Both the position numbers and the translations under genes were made by a program. A stretch of DNA of 64,000 nucleotides from Sulfurimonas marina (GTDB lineage Bacteria > Campylobacterota > Campylobacteria > Campylobacterales > Sulfurimonadaceae), in NCBI RefSeq assembly GCF_014905095.1, contig NZ_CP041165.1, positions 1,302,001 to 1,366,000 on the forward strand, written 5' to 3'. Below the pieces are notes generated by a model, which was not told the DNA's origin, ran no database searches, and was given only the letters and a program-made list of their open reading frames with translations. Positions 40,999 to 49,122 of this stretch are shown piece after piece. How positions within the stretch are numbered: the first letter of the stretch is position 1; every line of letters starts with the position of its first letter.

Positions 40999-41781
40999 TT
41001 AACTCTTTGGAAAATGTAAAGATATTACTTTTTCAAGTACTGCGAGAAGATCATGATCATCGCTAAGAGATTCAACCAAACAATGAATACAAGCCTGATA
41101 CGGTGTGAACCCTCCCGTAATTAGTTTGGCCGCATACACAAGTAGTCTTGTAGAAACTACTTCTTGAATATCACTGTCGTCTAGTTGACGAATTTCTCCC
41201 GCAATCATGACAAGTTTTTGTGCAAGTTGCTCAGAAATTCCACTCTCTTTTATAATGATTTCTTGTTCTACTTTTTGGTCTGGATAGCTAAAACTTAATG
41301 AAATAAATCTCTGTTTAGTACTGGGCTTCATTCCTTTTAAAATATTTTGATATCCAGGATTGTAGGAAACCACTAACATAAAATCGGGATGAGCTTCTAT
41401 GGTTTCGCCTGTTCTGTCTATAGACAGACTACGACGATAATCAGCAAGTGAATGCAAAACTACAGTAGTGTCTTTTCTTGCTTCTATAATCTCATCAAGA
41501 TAGCATATACCACCATTTCGTACAGCTTTTGTCAGTGGTCCATCTTGCCAATAGGTACCATTTTCATCTATTAAATGTCGGCCAATTAGATCTGCTGCAC
41601 TAAGATCATCATGACATACAACGGTATATACATCACGTTTTAGCTCTTCTCCCATTGCTTCAATAAAACGTGTTTTTCCACAACCTGTAGGCCCTTTTAT
41701 CAAGACAGGCAGATTCATTGATGCAGCAGCTTTGAAAAGTTCCACTTCATTTGTTTGAGGTAAATAGTAAATTTTAGACAT
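40999..41781 (-). CDS. norQ: MoxR-type AAA+ ATPase NorQ
   Basis: A 260-residue AAA+ ATPase: PVLIKGPTGCGKTRFIEAMG (Walker A), GGICYLDEIIEARKDTTVVL (Walker B), and sensor SYNPGYQN. NorQ/CbbQ proteins work with the VWA protein NorD to insert or activate metal in NorB, probably the non-heme iron. The gene order here is norD-norQ, 1 bp apart, rather than the norQ-norD order common in Proteobacteria. Confidence 0.94.
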   Translation of the reverse strand: MSKIYYLPQTNEVELFKAAASMNLPVLIKGPTGCGKTRFIEAMGEELKRDVYTVVCHDDLSAADLIGRHLIDENGTYWQDGPLTKAVRNGGICYLDEIIEARKDTTVVLHSLADYRRSLSIDRTGETIEAHPDFMLVVSYNPGYQNILKGMKPSTKQRFISLSFSYPDQKVEQEIIIKESGISEQLAQKLVMIAGEIRQLDDSDIQEVVSTRLLVYAAKLITGGFTPYQACIHCLVESLSDDHDLLAVLEKVISLHFPKS

Positions 41782-41782
41782 A

Positions 41783-43525
41783 TTAATTTCCTTTTGTTAA
41801 ATTCATATAGATTTCTGGTAGCACTTTAGGAAGTTTTTTAGGGTCACGAATAAGTGCATATCCATTTTTACCAAAAAGATATGGCAAGTAATCTTTGGCA
41901 TCAGTATCAATCGTGATACAAAAAGGGATAATTCCTTTTTTCTTTGCTTCTTCTATCGCTTTTTTAGTATCCTCAATACCGTATCGTCCATCATACCTGT
42001 CGACATCGTTTGGTTTGCCATCGCTCAGAATAAGTAATAATTTATTTTGGCTTTGTTGTTGATTTAAAATTTTGCTACTTTCCCTTACAGCAGCTCCCAT
42101 TCGAGTGTAATAGCCAGGCTTTATTGCTTCTATACGTCCTCGTATTAAATCATTGTAATTCTCTTTAAAATTCTTGATAACGTGAAAATTAACCTTCGTA
42201 TTTTTTACGGATGAAAAGGTATATATAGAAAACTGATCTTTGAGTTTATATAGTGATTCTGCAAATACCATAAGAGAATCTTTGATCATATCAATAACAC
42301 GTATTTCTTGAGTAATTCCAGCTTCTGTTGAGAGGGATACATCTGCTAGTATCAGTGTTGACATGTTTCTTGTATATTTCTCATAACTCTCAAAAAACTT
42401 TTGAGAATAATTTGATTGATTTTTATCACTTTTATAATCAATCCATGTATTGATATTGATATCATCTCCATAAGGAAGATAATTTCTTTTTATACGATCA
42501 AGATGGATTAAATCAAGTTCGTTTTGAATTTTTTTCATTGTCTTGATAAGTCTCTGTGGTAGTTTAATTGGTCCTACATTTAGAGTAACATGAGGTTGAA
42601 TGAGAACATATTTTTCTAAATAAGACTTTTTTTTGTAATCCCATTCATCTATCAGAATACCTTTTCCAAGGGGATATTCTATGAGCTCATTGCCTTTAAT
42701 GTCGAGATCCATTTTGACTCTTGCTGAGAGATTCGGATCTTTTTGTCCTAGAGTTATTTCATCTAACTCTTCAGCATTATAAATTGCATCTTCATCGTAG
42801 CTATCATTTTCTTGTCTATCTACACTTACTTGCTCCATAAAACTTAATACAGACTCTGGTAAAAACAATAAGAGTCCGTCCGTTTCTTTTGTATCATCAA
42901 TCTGATTAGCCTTTTTTTTCATTGTTAATGTATCACGTTTATGTTGCTTATTTTCTGTAGCATTTACTTCATCTTCAATATCAAAGTCAAGTGATTTCCC
43001 ACTATTGGCCATAGATGGATATATCCATAAAGGATTCGGATACTGAGGATCTGATAATTGTGGATAGTTTTGTGTCAAAAACTTTTGTGCATATTTATAA
43101 AAATCTCCAAAACCAAAATATTTTTTTAAAAGTAAATTAGTTGTAATTATATTTTCTTCGACAATATTTTGATTATTAACATTGATATGACTTATCATTG
43201 CTACAAGCCAATAGTAATGTATTTCATTATATTTTTTTGATGGGAAGTAGGCTAGTGAAGCAGGAAGGTATATACCTTTTTCATCCTGCCAAGCAAGATG
43301 AAAAGTTTTTCCTGCTCCTGAAATTTGTTCAAGAAACGTTCGAGTAGTTTTGATACTTCTTTTGTCAGTAATATATATATCTTTAGTTTTGTCACCTCCT
43401 AAAATATGATAAAAAAGTTTTAACGGTCTACTCTTGTGGGTAAAAAATATCTGCTCATCTTCATATAGATGAGAGACTTTTTTTGTTATAAAACTGTTCC
43501 AGAGTTTACCGACTTTTTCATCCAT
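41783..43525 (-). CDS. norD: VWA-domain NO reductase activation protein NorD
   Basis: 580 residues. A C-terminal von Willebrand A domain holds the MIDAS motif in TLILADVSLSTEAG (D-x-S-x-S), YYTRMGAAVRESSKIL and LLILSDGKPNDVDRYDGRYG. The N-terminal two thirds is the poorly conserved NorD region. It partners NorQ in maturing the NO reductase. It lies 1 bp downstream of norB and 1 bp upstream of norQ. Confidence 0.93.
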   Translation of the reverse strand: MDEKVGKLWNSFITKKVSHLYEDEQIFFTHKSRPLKLFYHILGGDKTKDIYITDKRSIKTTRTFLEQISGAGKTFHLAWQDEKGIYLPASLAYFPSKKYNEIHYYWLVAMISHINVNNQNIVEENIITTNLLLKKYFGFGDFYKYAQKFLTQNYPQLSDPQYPNPLWIYPSMANSGKSLDFDIEDEVNATENKQHKRDTLTMKKKANQIDDTKETDGLLLFLPESVLSFMEQVSVDRQENDSYDEDAIYNAEELDEITLGQKDPNLSARVKMDLDIKGNELIEYPLGKGILIDEWDYKKKSYLEKYVLIQPHVTLNVGPIKLPQRLIKTMKKIQNELDLIHLDRIKRNYLPYGDDININTWIDYKSDKNQSNYSQKFFESYEKYTRNMSTLILADVSLSTEAGITQEIRVIDMIKDSLMVFAESLYKLKDQFSIYTFSSVKNTKVNFHVIKNFKENYNDLIRGRIEAIKPGYYTRMGAAVRESSKILNQQQSQNKLLLILSDGKPNDVDRYDGRYGIEDTKKAIEEAKKKGIIPFCITIDTDAKDYLPYLFGKNGYALIRDPKKLPKVLPEIYMNLTKGN

Positions 43526-43526
43526 G

Positions 43527-44918
<1,392 letters not shown>

Positions 44919-45365
44919 TTATCCTTGAATATTTGGTGGCCATTCTTGATTGTTCACTTTGGAAGTCCAAATCAAGAAATCAGCAAGATTATCTATCTGC
45001 TCAGGAGTCAAATGAAATTGAGGCATTTTTCTTCTATCTGGAACGTCTAACGGTTGTGCTGCCATCCATCCTGATAAATACTCTTTAAATGTTTTTTCAT
45101 CACCTGCACCCAAACGTTTATACGCATTTCCTAATTCTGGTGCATAGTAAGCTCCTTCACCCATGAGAGTATGACAACCGATACAGTCATTGTCTTCCCA
45201 AACCTTTTTACCTAGAGCTACGGATTTAGTCATTGTATTTTCATGACTTAACTTTGGTATTTGATTGACAGTGTCAAAGGTAAGTCCTGTAAATACCAAA
45301 ATAGCGAAAAGGCCACCACCAAAGTAAATGTTTCTGGCCATATTTTTCGTTATACGCTCACTCAT
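44919..45365 (-). CDS. norC: nitric oxide reductase, cytochrome c subunit
   Basis: 148 residues, an N-terminal membrane anchor (IYFGGGLFAILVFTGLTFDT) and a periplasmic cytochrome c domain with CIGCHTLMGEGAYYAPELGN; the distal Met is likely in RKMPQFHLTPEQ. The last part DFLIWTSKVNNQEWPPN is typical NorC. A strong ribosome-binding site (AAGGAG) precedes the ATG. It is the first gene of the operon; the paired inverted motifs at 45384-45405 and 45429-45450 lie just upstream. Confidence 0.97.
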   Translation of the reverse strand: MSERITKNMARNIYFGGGLFAILVFTGLTFDTVNQIPKLSHENTMTKSVALGKKVWEDNDCIGCHTLMGEGAYYAPELGNAYKRLGAGDEKTFKEYLSGWMAAQPLDVPDRRKMPQFHLTPEQIDNLADFLIWTSKVNNQEWPPNIQG

Positions 45366-45383
45366 TTTTAACTCCTTATTTAA

Positions 45384-45450
45384 ATTCTACCTATGAGTAG
45401 TAATTGGAATCCTAACAAGAAAATATTTAATTACTACTTAAAGGTAGAAT
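45384..45450 (-). promoter_or_regulatory. norC operator pair (candidate Rrf2/NO-responsive sites)
   Basis: Two 22 bp motifs in opposite orientation, at 45384-45405 (core CTACCTATGAGTAG) and 45429-45450 (core CTACTTAAAGGTAG), 45 bp apart start to start. Each core is itself a rough palindrome CTAC-N6-GTAG. The same pair, same spacing and same 19 bp distance to the start codon, lies before the haemerythrin gene. The encoded Rrf2 regulator is the best candidate to bind; a promoter -10 box between them was not clear. Confidence 0.65.
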
Positions 45451-45527
45451 ATAAATATTTGAATGTGAAACTTTTTTATTTAAACTTTTCAAATTAAACA
45501 ATATATTTGGTATGCTGCAACAAGATG

Positions 45528-45543
45528 TAATGGTTAACCATTA
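45528..45543. promoter_or_regulatory. 16 bp perfect palindrome
   Basis: TAATGGTTAACCATTA reads the same on both strands. It lies about 160 bp upstream of norC and 150 bp beyond the end of the cupin gene. It may be a regulator site or a weak cruciform; no other copy was noticed. Confidence 0.5.
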
Positions 45544-45691
45544 TTAATTTAAATAAAAATGGTAATGTATCGGAATTCAGTAAGTTCCCATAAATAAGTA
45601 CTTTTGTATATTGTTTTATCGTTTAAATGAACTATAACAAAGAGGTTATTATGGGTTTTGAATATTATTGAAAATTGCTATGAATAAGATG

Positions 45692-46054
45692 TCAAAAAGT
45701 CCTATGGCTTGGAATATTTTCTACAAGCGAAAAGACTCTTTGCTCGGAATCATGTTTTGAAAGCGTAAGGCGTATTACACTATCTTCAAGTGCTTCTAAG
45801 GAGTGTGGTACCTTGGCGTTAAAATAAACCATATCCCCATTGTTTAACTCTTTACTTTCTTCTAAAGAATCAATACGTACTCTGCCTTTGATGATTAGAA
45901 TCGTTATGGCATCGGGAGCTGTATGTTCTTGCATTACACTGTCTTTTGCCATGCAGATACGTATCTCTTTGGAAAAAGATGTTTCGGATAGCTTATCTAT
46001 TTGCACTTTTTTTTCACTAGTGCTAACGTTTAAAAAAGAGACTATATCCATCAT
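45692..46054 (-). CDS. single-domain cupin protein
   Basis: 120 residues with a conserved beta-barrel core: MQEHTAPDAITILIIKGRVR, LNNGDMVYFNAKVPHSLEAL. The metal His pattern is reduced (H in QEHTAP and H in VPHSL). Small cupins of this sort occur with haemerythrin-like genes under anaerobic or NO control. Its start overlaps the haemerythrin gene by 4 bp (ATGA), so the two are one operon. The function is unknown. Confidence 0.82.
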   Translation of the reverse strand: MMDIVSFLNVSTSEKKVQIDKLSETSFSKEIRICMAKDSVMQEHTAPDAITILIIKGRVRIDSLEESKELNNGDMVYFNAKVPHSLEALEDSVIRLTLSKHDSEQRVFSLVENIPSHRTF

Positions 46055-46461
46055 ATATCCTTTTTTGACATAGCAATGAACTGTGCTGTCACAGTATCCA
46101 TACTAGAGATATGTTGATGTAGCCATGCTGGTATATCTGAGGTCAAATATTCCTCTAAAATAGAGTTGTCTTTTTTATTTCGCCAATCTAAAATAACATA
46201 TTGAAATTCTGTTAATACACGGTCATGCTCATGCTTGTGCATTCTGAATGCAGGGAAATTAATTTCTTGCATGAGACGTTCTTCATTTGCAAAATGTTCA
46301 CGAGTATGGTCTAATAGTAAGTCTACAGCCACATTTATCTGCTCTGGTGGTGCACTATTTTCAAGTAAATTCTCAATATTATTAAGTAGTTCTACTTCTT
46401 CAGCATGAACAGCATTCATTTCATCATAGGCAACTTTTGGAATCAGTGTTAAATCAATCAT
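46051..46461 (-). CDS. bacteriohaemerythrin
   Basis: 136 residues, a four-helix non-heme diiron protein. The iron-binding pattern is present: an early His (NAVHAEEVELL), HTREHFANEERLM (H-x4-E type), FRMHKHEHDRVL and WLHQHISSMDTVTAQF. Such proteins bind O2 or NO; in Campylobacterota they help against oxidative or nitrosative stress. It forms an operon with the cupin gene and is divergent from the Rrf2 regulator gene. Its promoter is nearly identical to that of norC, so joint control is likely. Confidence 0.92.
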   Translation of the reverse strand: MIDLTLIPKVAYDEMNAVHAEEVELLNNIENLLENSAPPEQINVAVDLLLDHTREHFANEERLMQEINFPAFRMHKHEHDRVLTEFQYVILDWRNKKDNSILEEYLTSDIPAWLHQHISSMDTVTAQFIAMSKKDI

Positions 46462-46479
46462 TTTAAACTCCTTATTTAA

Positions 46480-46546
46480 ATACTACCTTTTAGTGGTAAT
46501 TATAATGCTAACAGGAAAATATTTAATTACTACTTAAAGGTAGAAT
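46480..46546 (-). promoter_or_regulatory. haemerythrin/rrf2 operator pair (second copy)
   Basis: Motifs at 46480-46501 (core CTACCTTTTAGTGG) and 46525-46546 (core CTACTTAAAGGTAG, identical to the norC copy) in inverted orientation and with the same spacing. Located between the divergent haemerythrin and Rrf2 genes, so the regulator could also control itself. About 85 bp around the pair is repeated at norC. Confidence 0.65.
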
Positions 46547-46592
46547 TAAATATTTTTTTATTAAACTATGATAATTAAATTGGAGAATAGAA

Positions 46593-47015
46593 ATGCAACT
46601 ACACAATACAACACAATATGCTATAAGAATTTTAAGTTATCTGACTCAACAAGAAGGTGATAGTGTAAATTATTTACTGAGCGCTAAAGAGATAGCAGAA
46701 AGATTGGAAATACCATATAAATTTTTAACAAAAATTATGGGTGAACTTACTAAAGCAGGTTTTGTTACGTCAATAAGAGGACGAGAAGGTGGATATGAGC
46801 TAAAAAAATCTGCATCAGAAATAAAAATATCAGATATATTAGATGTTTTTAATGATCCTTTACATGAAGAACAATGTATATTAGGAATTGGCTTTTGTAA
46901 TAAAGTAAATAAATGTGCTTTACATGATCAATGGATGCAACCTAAAACTTTAATTGAACAAATGTTTAAAGAGACTACGTTGGAACAGATCGCCAACCAA
47001 GGAACTAAGGTATGA
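46593..47015 (+). CDS. Rrf2-family Fe-S transcriptional regulator (NsrR-like)
   Basis: 140 residues: N-terminal winged helix (YAIRILSYLTQQEGDSVNYL, AKEIAERLEIPYKFLTKIMG, TSIRGREGGYELKKSASEIK) and three Cys in EEQCILGIGFCNKVNKCALH, spaced C-x6-C-x5-C. These are the Fe-S ligands in NsrR/IscR. NsrR senses nitric oxide by damage to its cluster. The gene stands next to NO genes (haemerythrin, nor, NnrS) and overlaps nnrS (4 bp, ATGA). The spacing differs slightly from NsrR and IscR as known (C-x5/7-C-x5-C), so the exact sensor type is open. Confidence 0.9.
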   Translation: MQLHNTTQYAIRILSYLTQQEGDSVNYLLSAKEIAERLEIPYKFLTKIMGELTKAGFVTSIRGREGGYELKKSASEIKISDILDVFNDPLHEEQCILGIGFCNKVNKCALHDQWMQPKTLIEQMFKETTLEQIANQGTKV

Positions 47016-48163
47016 TAAAAGAAAACTATTTTTTATCGCAGCCCCATCAACCATTTTTTCTTTCAGGAACGGTGTGGGCAGTGATTTCAATGTTGTTCTT
47101 TGCATTGATGTATCATGGAGTGTTTACATTAAATATTTCTCCGATATTTTTCCATGTATACACAATGTTTTTTATGATCTTTACACCTTTTTTTATTGGT
47201 TTTCTATTTACTACTTTTCCCCGTTTTTGCCAAAGTTCTGTTATAGAAAGAAAGGTTTATATACGTATTTTTTCTTTTTTACAATTTGGCAGTATTCTAT
47301 TTATCATCGGAGCTTTTACTAATCCTATTCTTGTAAATGCATCTATCCTAGTAATATTTTTTTCAGATATACTTGTTGTGATTGAGTTGCAAAAGATATA
47401 TAATGAAGGGCATACTTCTAGAGCAAGTAGTGATACTTTATGGATTCTAATAGGATTTTATATGGGTCTTTTTACACATGCTCTTTTCTTAGTAGATAGC
47501 AATCTTTCAATCTTTCAATATGATCTCAATATATTTAATATTGCAGCTACTATAGGCTTTTGGAACTATCTTATTTTTATCGCTTTTACAGTTGCTCAAA
47601 GAATGGTTCCATTCTTTAGTCATGTTACTGTCGAAAAAAGACGCGGATTTAATACAGTCGTTTTTAGCGGATTATTGTTGCATACAGTTTTTTCAATTAC
47701 TGCCTTACAATTTCCACAAATGATTATCGACGTTGTATTAGGTATTTATATTTTCGTTGAGTTGCGTCGATGGAAATTTGACACATTACAATCACCTGCA
47801 ATTTTATGGATATTACATCTAGCTCTTTATTGGGTACCTATAGCTTTAATCGTAAGTATTATTTCTATAAACTTTTTGTCATTACATGTAATGGCAATAG
47901 GGTTTTTAACAACTATACTGATAGGTTTTGGAACACGTGTAACACTTGGACATTCAGGACAAGCACCTCATGCAGATCGTTATGTGACAAATCTTTTTTA
48001 TTTTGTTCAGGTTATCGTAGTTTTAAGAGCTGCTTACTCTCTCTTTATAGATAAACTTTGGCTTTTTGATGCAGCTGCAACAGCATGGATGATTCTTTAT
48101 ATACTTTGGATAGGACGATATGGGTCTGTGTTATTAAATGGCAAAAAGATAGGGAGTTCTTAA
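47012..48163 (+). CDS. nnrS: NnrS family membrane protein
   Basis: 383 residues with about 11-12 membrane segments and many conserved His/Asn: FLSQPHQPFFLSGTVWAVIS, LFTTFPRF, GFWNYLIFIAFTVAQRMVPF, LTTILIGFGTRVTLGHSGQA. NnrS is a heme- and copper-containing membrane protein known to be linked with denitrification and protection from NO. It begins inside the regulator gene (4 bp overlap) and its stop overlaps the next start (TAATG at 48161-48165), so all three are co-translated. Confidence 0.93.
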   Translation: MIKENYFLSQPHQPFFLSGTVWAVISMLFFALMYHGVFTLNISPIFFHVYTMFFMIFTPFFIGFLFTTFPRFCQSSVIERKVYIRIFSFLQFGSILFIIGAFTNPILVNASILVIFFSDILVVIELQKIYNEGHTSRASSDTLWILIGFYMGLFTHALFLVDSNLSIFQYDLNIFNIAATIGFWNYLIFIAFTVAQRMVPFFSHVTVEKRRGFNTVVFSGLLLHTVFSITALQFPQMIIDVVLGIYIFVELRRWKFDTLQSPAILWILHLALYWVPIALIVSIISINFLSLHVMAIGFLTTILIGFGTRVTLGHSGQAPHADRYVTNLFYFVQVIVVLRAAYSLFIDKLWLFDAAATAWMILYILWIGRYGSVLLNGKKIGSS

Positions 48164-48591: not shown

Positions 48592-49122
48592 ATGAAGAAA
48601 TTTTTTAAACAGTTTAAAAAAATAAATACCGAACCTCTTGAAAAATCAAATATGATCTGGTCTTGGATCGGTTCTTTTTTGGGGATTTTCACGATTGTAG
48701 TAGTACATAACGGTATTCTAGGTGATAATGATCTTAATTTAGTCATTGGATCTTTTGGAGCAAGTGCAGTTTTAGTATATGGTGCTATACATTCACCCTT
48801 GTCTCAGCCAAGAAACTTAATAGGTGGACATGTTTTATCTGCTATTATAGGTGTTATATCCTATAAAGTCTTTCACGATCACTTGCTTTTTGCAGCTGCT
48901 TTTGCTGTTTCAACATCAATACTTGCAATGCAACTCAGTTTAACTTTACACCCTCCGGGAGGGGCAACTGCATTGATTGCTGTTTTAGGGAGCGAGAAGA
49001 TCCATGAGCTAGGCTTTTTGTATGTTCTCTACCCTGTTTTTACAGGGGCAGTGATTTTATTCTTTATTGCATTACTTGTTAATAACATCTCCAAACATAG
49101 AAGTTATCCAAATCGCGATTAA
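48592..49122 (+). CDS. HPP family membrane protein
   Basis: 176 residues with four to five membrane segments and the family signature in LSLTLHPPGGATALIAVLGS, plus HSPLSQPRNLIGGHVLSAII. HPP proteins of plastids and cyanobacteria transport nitrite, so export or import of nitrite beside an NO detoxification module is plausible, though not shown by the sequence. It runs head-on into the RND permease gene; the two stop codons overlap by 4 bp (49119-49122). Confidence 0.85.
   Translation: MKKFFKQFKKINTEPLEKSNMIWSWIGSFLGIFTIVVVHNGILGDNDLNLVIGSFGASAVLVYGAIHSPLSQPRNLIGGHVLSAIIGVISYKVFHDHLLFAAAFAVSTSILAMQLSLTLHPPGGATALIAVLGSEKIHELGFLYVLYPVFTGAVILFFIALLVNNISKHRSYPNRD

Follow-up and report, generated by a model that had tools for sequence, protein, structure and literature searches.

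NsrR, an NO-sensing repressor of the Rrf2 family, is known from E. coli, Neisseria and Streptomyces; wild-type IscR carries its cluster cysteines at CX5CX5C spacing, and its operator differs from the CTAC-N6-GTAG site considered here. The NsrR operator consensus is given in an excerpt of PMC1274295 as gATGyAT-N5-ATrCATc, and a passage of PMC11500311 describes Asp8 as the fourth cluster ligand of Streptomyces NsrR, together with Cys93, Cys99 and Cys105. Denitrification genes of Campylobacterota are placed under Crp/Fnr control (Nss/NssR), with TTGA-N6-TCAA sites, in part of PMC11539149. Among the open-licence papers listed by our literature searches, none describes in its title or abstract opening an Rrf2 operator for nor genes in Campylobacterota.

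The window, by which we mean the whole 64,000-nt stretch of DNA that was analysed, comes from the 2.26-Mb, single-contig genome of Sulfurimonas marina (Campylobacterota). Its genes of interest run in the order norQ, norD, norB, norC (minus strand), cupin, haemerythrin (Hr; minus strand), then rrf2, nnrS, a small membrane protein and an HPP-family protein (plus strand), with the following coordinates and best domain matches:

40999-41781, minus strand: norQ, AAA protein with a CbbQ/NirQ/NorQ C-terminal domain (PF08406, 9e-29)
41783-43525, minus strand: norD, VWA domain (PF00092, 2.2e-8)
43527-44909, minus strand: norB, catalytic subunit (PF00115, 1.1e-68)
44919-45365, minus strand: norC, cytochrome c subunit of NO reductase, directly before norB (PF00034, 2e-12)
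45692-46054, minus strand: cupin gene, overlapping the Hr stop and in the same operon as Hr (PF07883, 2.7e-7)
46051-46461, minus strand: Hr, single-domain haemerythrin (PF01814, 8.9e-11)
46593-47015, plus strand: rrf2, Rrf2-family regulator with CX6CX5CX2H (PF02082, 5.2e-31; TIGR00738, 116.7 bits against a cutoff of 73.3)
47012-48163, plus strand: nnrS, overlapping the end of rrf2 (PF05940, 1.6e-57)
48592-49122, plus strand: HPP-family membrane protein (PF04982, 1.7e-58)

The HPP-family gene possibly belongs to the same operon as rrf2 and nnrS. A stretch of 244 bp (45448-45691) with no assigned function separates the norC promoter from the end of the cupin gene. Neither the genome nor the fetched loci gave a second strong match to it, on which ground its reading as a repeat or relic was rejected; it may contain rearrangement scars.

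The first-pass annotation had described two promoters, one before norC and one before Hr, sharing some 85 nearly identical base pairs. Both are present: over the final 85 nt ahead of each start codon they match, ungapped, at 76 positions, and in a gapped alignment of the last 101 nt before the starts 87 of 100 positions agree. Within these segments we delineated the following elements:

45366-45466, minus strand: norC copy of the duplicated promoter segment (87/100 aligned positions equal to the Hr copy)
45387-45400, minus strand: norC proximal operator CTAC-N6-GTAG (CTACCTATGAGTAG on the plus strand), over the predicted transcription start
45409-45414, minus strand: norC -10 element TAGGAT, extended TGTTAGGAT, between both operators, at a position conserved in aligned norC promoters
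45434-45447, minus strand: norC distal operator (CTACTTAAAGGTAG on the plus strand), covering the -35 position
46462-46562, minus strand: Hr copy of the duplicated promoter segment (87/100 aligned positions equal to the norC copy)
46483-46496, minus strand: Hr proximal operator (CTACCTTTTAGTGG on the plus strand), one mismatch (GTGG), by sequence match
46505-46510, minus strand: Hr -10 element TAGCAT, TGTTAGCAT, by sequence and by analogy with norC promoters
46530-46543, minus strand: Hr distal operator (CTACTTAAAGGTAG on the plus strand), 49 nt before rrf2, by sequence match

Three of the four CTAC-N6-GTAG cores claimed for these promoters are exact, the proximal Hr core ending in GTGG, and the distal 22-mer is identical in both, as had been noted. 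The reported 45-bp spacing hinges on the 22-bp definition of the motif; from core to core it is 47 bp. The figure of 19 bp from proximal motif to start codon has to be corrected, the distance being 21 nt from core to ATG in both promoters and 17 nt from a 22-bp motif as positioned in this analysis. What carries over intact is the shared architecture of norC and Hr, with paired sites at the same distances from the start codon, and the observation that the CTAC-N6-GTAG site is unlike the known NsrR site.

The placement of these sites points to a particular promoter logic. In norC promoters aligned on the proximal site, a TAnnAT box, usually preceded by TG, occupies one fixed place in 34 of 43, at 14 to 9 nt upstream of that site's core. 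Transcription by a sigma-70 polymerase would accordingly begin at the margin of the proximal operator, with the distal operator lying over -35. Since operators over the transcription start and -35 suit a repressor, the conserved extended -10 box between them suggests repression. The Hr promoter has in addition gained a TATAAT about 5 nt downstream of TAGCAT, which may make it the stronger promoter, and its distal operator may also serve the divergent rrf2 promoter. An extension of the duplication beyond the distal operator into the rrf2 leader was rejected (90 of 500 shuffles attained its score of 17), as was the inverted orientation of the distal site as a mark of the Sulfurimonas marina lineage, this being found also in relatives such as L032, L035, L043, L050 and L052.

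The operator had been thought lineage-specific; it is instead order-wide and old in the group. norC occurs in 27 of the 398 genomes of the order, and all 27 have at least one site (at most one mismatch) no more than 90 nt away from the norC start; the operator likewise precedes norC in named Sulfurimonas, Sulfurovum and Arcobacter records. The proximal site is found in 25 of the 27, and both sites stand in their standard places in 20. Departures from this layout comprise the absence of a distal site (G012, G071), truncation by a contig end (G374), a distal site with two mismatches (G337), an altered proximal site (G274, G257) and a shifted array of four sites (G428). A further locus, L029, also has no distal site, and Rrf2 adjoins norC both there and in G012. 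Three loci (L130, L131 and L132, from genomes G303, G345 and G427) display three operators before norC, in steps of about 45 bp (-124, -79, -34).

A larger set of norC upstream regions was assembled from two collections, whose loci partly overlap; only loci that agreed completely across 100 nt were combined. A norC match had to show at least 55% identity and begin at residue 1, which left 68 upstreams, 53 of them distinct. Both sites are present in 44 of these 53, at spacings of 44-47 bp (45 bp in 23, 46 in 11, 47 in 9 and 44 in one) and with the proximal core at -33 to -39; the consensus was derived from 43 of the 44. In L166 only 76 nt are available upstream of norC. Spacings of 44-47 bp correspond to no whole number of helical turns, which counts against the explanation favoured below.

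By chance, pairs of this kind are very rare. Two sites 43-49 bp apart with at most one mismatch each are found in 45 of the 53 distinct norC upstreams, in one of 5300 dinucleotide shuffles of these upstreams and in none of 53 controls taken from within norC-norB, all but one of full length. The single motif is not enriched: CTAC-N6-GTAG occurs at 25 places in the genome against 64 for the reversed pattern, and sites with at most one mismatch number 10 in the window against 12.3 expected. The first-pass annotation had proposed a search of the genome and its relatives for such pairs; this search recovered the pair in 19 of the 398 genomes and no wider regulon in the own genome, where the extended motif with zero or one mismatch finds only the four known sites. 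A genome-wide regulon was likewise rejected at two mismatches, places with up to that number being no commoner than control (25/27 vs 42/39). Ten two-mismatch places (L107-L116) were inspected, nine of them inside ORFs and the tenth (L115) before a MarR gene.

The product of the neighbouring rrf2 gene belongs to the Rrf2 family (PF02082, 108 bits against a cutoff of 30), and the TIGR00738 cutoff, which it passes, is also passed by 10 of 10 relatives scanned. The window protein and these ten relatives all fall well short of the equivalog cutoffs for NsrR, IscR, RirA and CymR. Against the NsrR equivalog NF008240 (PRK11014; cutoff 182) the window Rrf2 scores 57.2 bits and the ten relatives 31.6 to 59.5; its IscR scores are 79.9 against 207.55 bits (TIGR02010) and 50.2 against 275 (NF008110), and its RirA score of 64.4 bits is far below cutoff. 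Residues C95, C102, C108 and H111 are the same in all 66 aligned rows (56 close, among which the window is counted twice, as itself and as L054, and 10 intermediate), and CX6CX5CX2H is not present as a set in 16 distant Rrf2 rows. Position 8 is Gln in 51 and Lys in 5 of the close rows, never Asp, and Glu in 8, Gln in one and a gap in one of the intermediate rows.

This protein resembles NsrR in its family, in the three cysteines of the cluster loop, in the presence of operators at promoters and in its NO-handling neighbours (nor, nnrS and a haemerythrin-type di-iron protein). It differs in the paired CTAC-N6-GTAG operator, as against gATGyAT-N5-ATrCATc (PMC1274295, excerpt), in Gln, Glu or Lys in place of the ligand Asp8, and in the CX6CX5CX2H arrangement compared with the Cys93/99/105 spacing of Streptomyces NsrR (both PMC11500311, in the passage cited). 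The classical NsrR motif could be rejected at the norC and Hr promoters, with no match at up to two mismatches in 44914-46236 or 46254-47153, the stretches that hold both; the whole window has 14 such matches against 21.8 expected. The Rrf2 is therefore NsrR-like by its setting, but by test it is not NsrR.

A possible, though rather unlikely, alternative is that the protein does bind these operators and senses iron, oxygen or Fe-S status in the manner of IscR or RirA, and not NO itself. Its IscR and RirA equivalog scores do exceed that for NsrR, all of them lying far below cutoff, and NsrR Asp8 is Gln here. As in IscR, three cysteines are followed by CXXH in the aligned loop, and H111, which follows the third Cys, falls opposite the IscR His in an alignment to solved IscR, whose chains carry Ala at the cluster Cys positions. 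The CX6CX5C spacing, however, departs from the CX5CX5C of IscR, and the window Rrf2 lies beside nor genes; members of its group stand repeatedly beside norCB, the quinol NO reductase gene (qNor) and nnrS in the stretches read, which argues for NO as the signal.

The first-pass annotation had pointed to this Rrf2 as the presumed regulator, and co-occurrence makes it the best candidate for control of the norC and Hr operators. A strict form of the pair was found at 23 places in 19 of the 398 genomes, compared with 7 genomes for a reversed control pattern. Seventeen of these places front norC, two front qNor (742 to 744 residues; L118, L129) and one fronts the window Hr; the other three, two in L117 and one in L119, adjoin Rrf2 relatives whose fetched stretch contains no nor gene. 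This Rrf2 is encoded, at E <=1e-20, by 47 of the 398 genomes, and these include every one of the 19; the hypergeometric probability of 5e-20 ignores relatedness and overstates the association, since related genomes are not independent. The rrf2 gene is usually divergent from the site-bearing norC, and linkage and function are partly confounded where Rrf2 adjoins the promoters. In G204, G337, G379 and G420 an Rrf2 47-48% identical lies past norQ and the norC site is kept, while G071 has norC with the proximal site only and no Rrf2 at E 1e-20. Rrf2 members beside qNor in L224, L226, L228 and L230 are accompanied by pairs or single sites, mostly with one mismatched, and some members have no nearby site (L227 in G280, L232 in G331, L225 in G177).

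That the operators belong to another regulator, of the Nss/Dnr-type Crp/Fnr group or NorR, with the Rrf2 a mere neighbour, appears improbable. Control of denitrification and NO genes by Crp/Fnr proteins is described for this phylum (PMC11539149, in part), a Crp/Fnr gene adjoins Hr-cupin in relatives, and the norC site persists in genomes whose Rrf2 is not an immediate neighbour. Yet these regulators belong to another protein family with another site, TTGA-N6-TCAA, and CTAC-N6-GTAG resembles neither the Fnr site nor the NorR consensus GT-N7-AC (PMC1274295, excerpt). An Fnr box at the norC and Hr promoters was rejected, no TTGAY-N4-RTCAA match with at most one mismatch being found between 42430 and 52699 of the window. 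The operator pair also occurs beside the Rrf2 relatives of L117 and L119, in stretches free of nor genes.

How haemerythrin may have come under this operator is suggested by its relatives. A haemerythrin match is present in 67 of 228 genomes of the family, and the upstream comparison covers the 30 loci listed of these matches; among those 30, only the window has CTAC-N6-GTAG (at most one mismatch) in the 150 nt that precede Hr. Its six nearest Hr-cupin relatives among the loci listed (L136-L141) all carry TTGAY-N4-RTCAA about 50 nt before Hr and no CTAC site, and the window Hr (L135) has no such Fnr-type box. A divergent Crp/Fnr gene beside Hr-cupin was confirmed by Pfam in the two loci scanned (L137, L141) and matched by an alike ORF in L139 and L140; in L136 and L138 its start is seen only in the upstream stretch, with no called ORF. 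The distance between Hr and rrf2 (131 bp) matches that between norC and rrf2 in ten relatives (130-138 bp), so Hr occupies the position held by norC in those genomes. The two copies of the window agree at 29 of 33 positions of the spacer between the operators, whereas comparison with relatives' spacers of that length gives no more than 22 of 33, so duplication in the Sulfurimonas marina lineage fits better than convergence, even though the 87/100 agreement exceeds only modestly that reached with the best norC promoter of another species (80 of 97 to 98 aligned positions). The claim of lineage specificity thus stands for the extension to haemerythrin, in what was sampled, where the Hr copy looks new, and fails for the operator itself. 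We find it hard to regard the Hr copy as a bare by-product of local duplication with no regulatory role, as Hr occupying the norC place next to rrf2 and the proximal operator one base off the core might suggest, given that both operators, their spacing, the -10 box and the leader to the ATG are kept at 76/85 and that no Fnr-type box is left before Hr.

Taken together, the sequence data make it likely that the CTAC-N6-GTAG sites are operators of the neighbouring Rrf2, that this protein represses norC in an NsrR-like way, and that haemerythrin was captured by a promoter copy. The Rrf2 would act as an iron-sulfur repressor, with two dimers flanking the -10 box, one over -35 and one over the transcription start, and would keep norCBDQ off until nitric oxide damages its cluster. 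A copy of the norC promoter, placed before the Hr-cupin operon between norC and rrf2, would then have brought haemerythrin into the norC regulon and out of the Crp/Fnr control seen in relatives, so that the two would be expressed together. Haemerythrin and norC are thus probably two NO defences under one local repressor.

On balance, and with some reservation, we lean towards a broader reading: Campylobacterota may possess an NO-responsive subfamily of Rrf2 proteins that differs from NsrR (CX6CX5CX2H, no Asp8) and has its own paired operator around an extended -10 box. Several unrelated NO reductases would be under its control: cNor, qNor and perhaps a so far unrecognised heme-copper enzyme (L220/L221). 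In one lineage, duplication of a promoter would have transferred a haemerythrin operon to it from a Crp/Fnr regulator. If true, NO reductase would have a second, Rrf2-based control across the order, beside the Crp/Fnr control described in part of PMC11539149, through an operator that can be searched for in any genome. The group would also offer a test set for the effect of Fe-S ligand changes (no Asp8, CX6CX5CX2H) on NO sensing, as well as a clear natural example of a gene switching between two NO regulons by promoter duplication, and would link a single-domain haemerythrin to NO handling.

Several smaller observations accompany these results. In the own genome, at about 1500 of L115, a near-palindromic TACTACTAATTAGTACTA lies just before the MarR gene, which is followed by a YceI gene. 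Beside members of the Rrf2 group, L220 (4108-6347, plus strand) and L221 (1089-3331, minus strand) contain a two-gene operon encoding a 195-196-residue protein with a weak CoxB-like stretch and a 551-residue COX1-family protein that scores far below every NCBIfam oxidase cutoff. An operator stands at -37 of the L220 operon and one with one mismatch at about -34 of the L221 operon; in both loci the operon may encode an unrecognised NO reductase. Finally, L117 (4010-4348, minus strand) and L119 (3735-4055, minus strand) encode, behind an operator pair and tail to tail with an Rrf2 relative, a protein of 106-112 residues with a signal-peptide-like start and no Pfam match, a candidate for a new NO-response protein.
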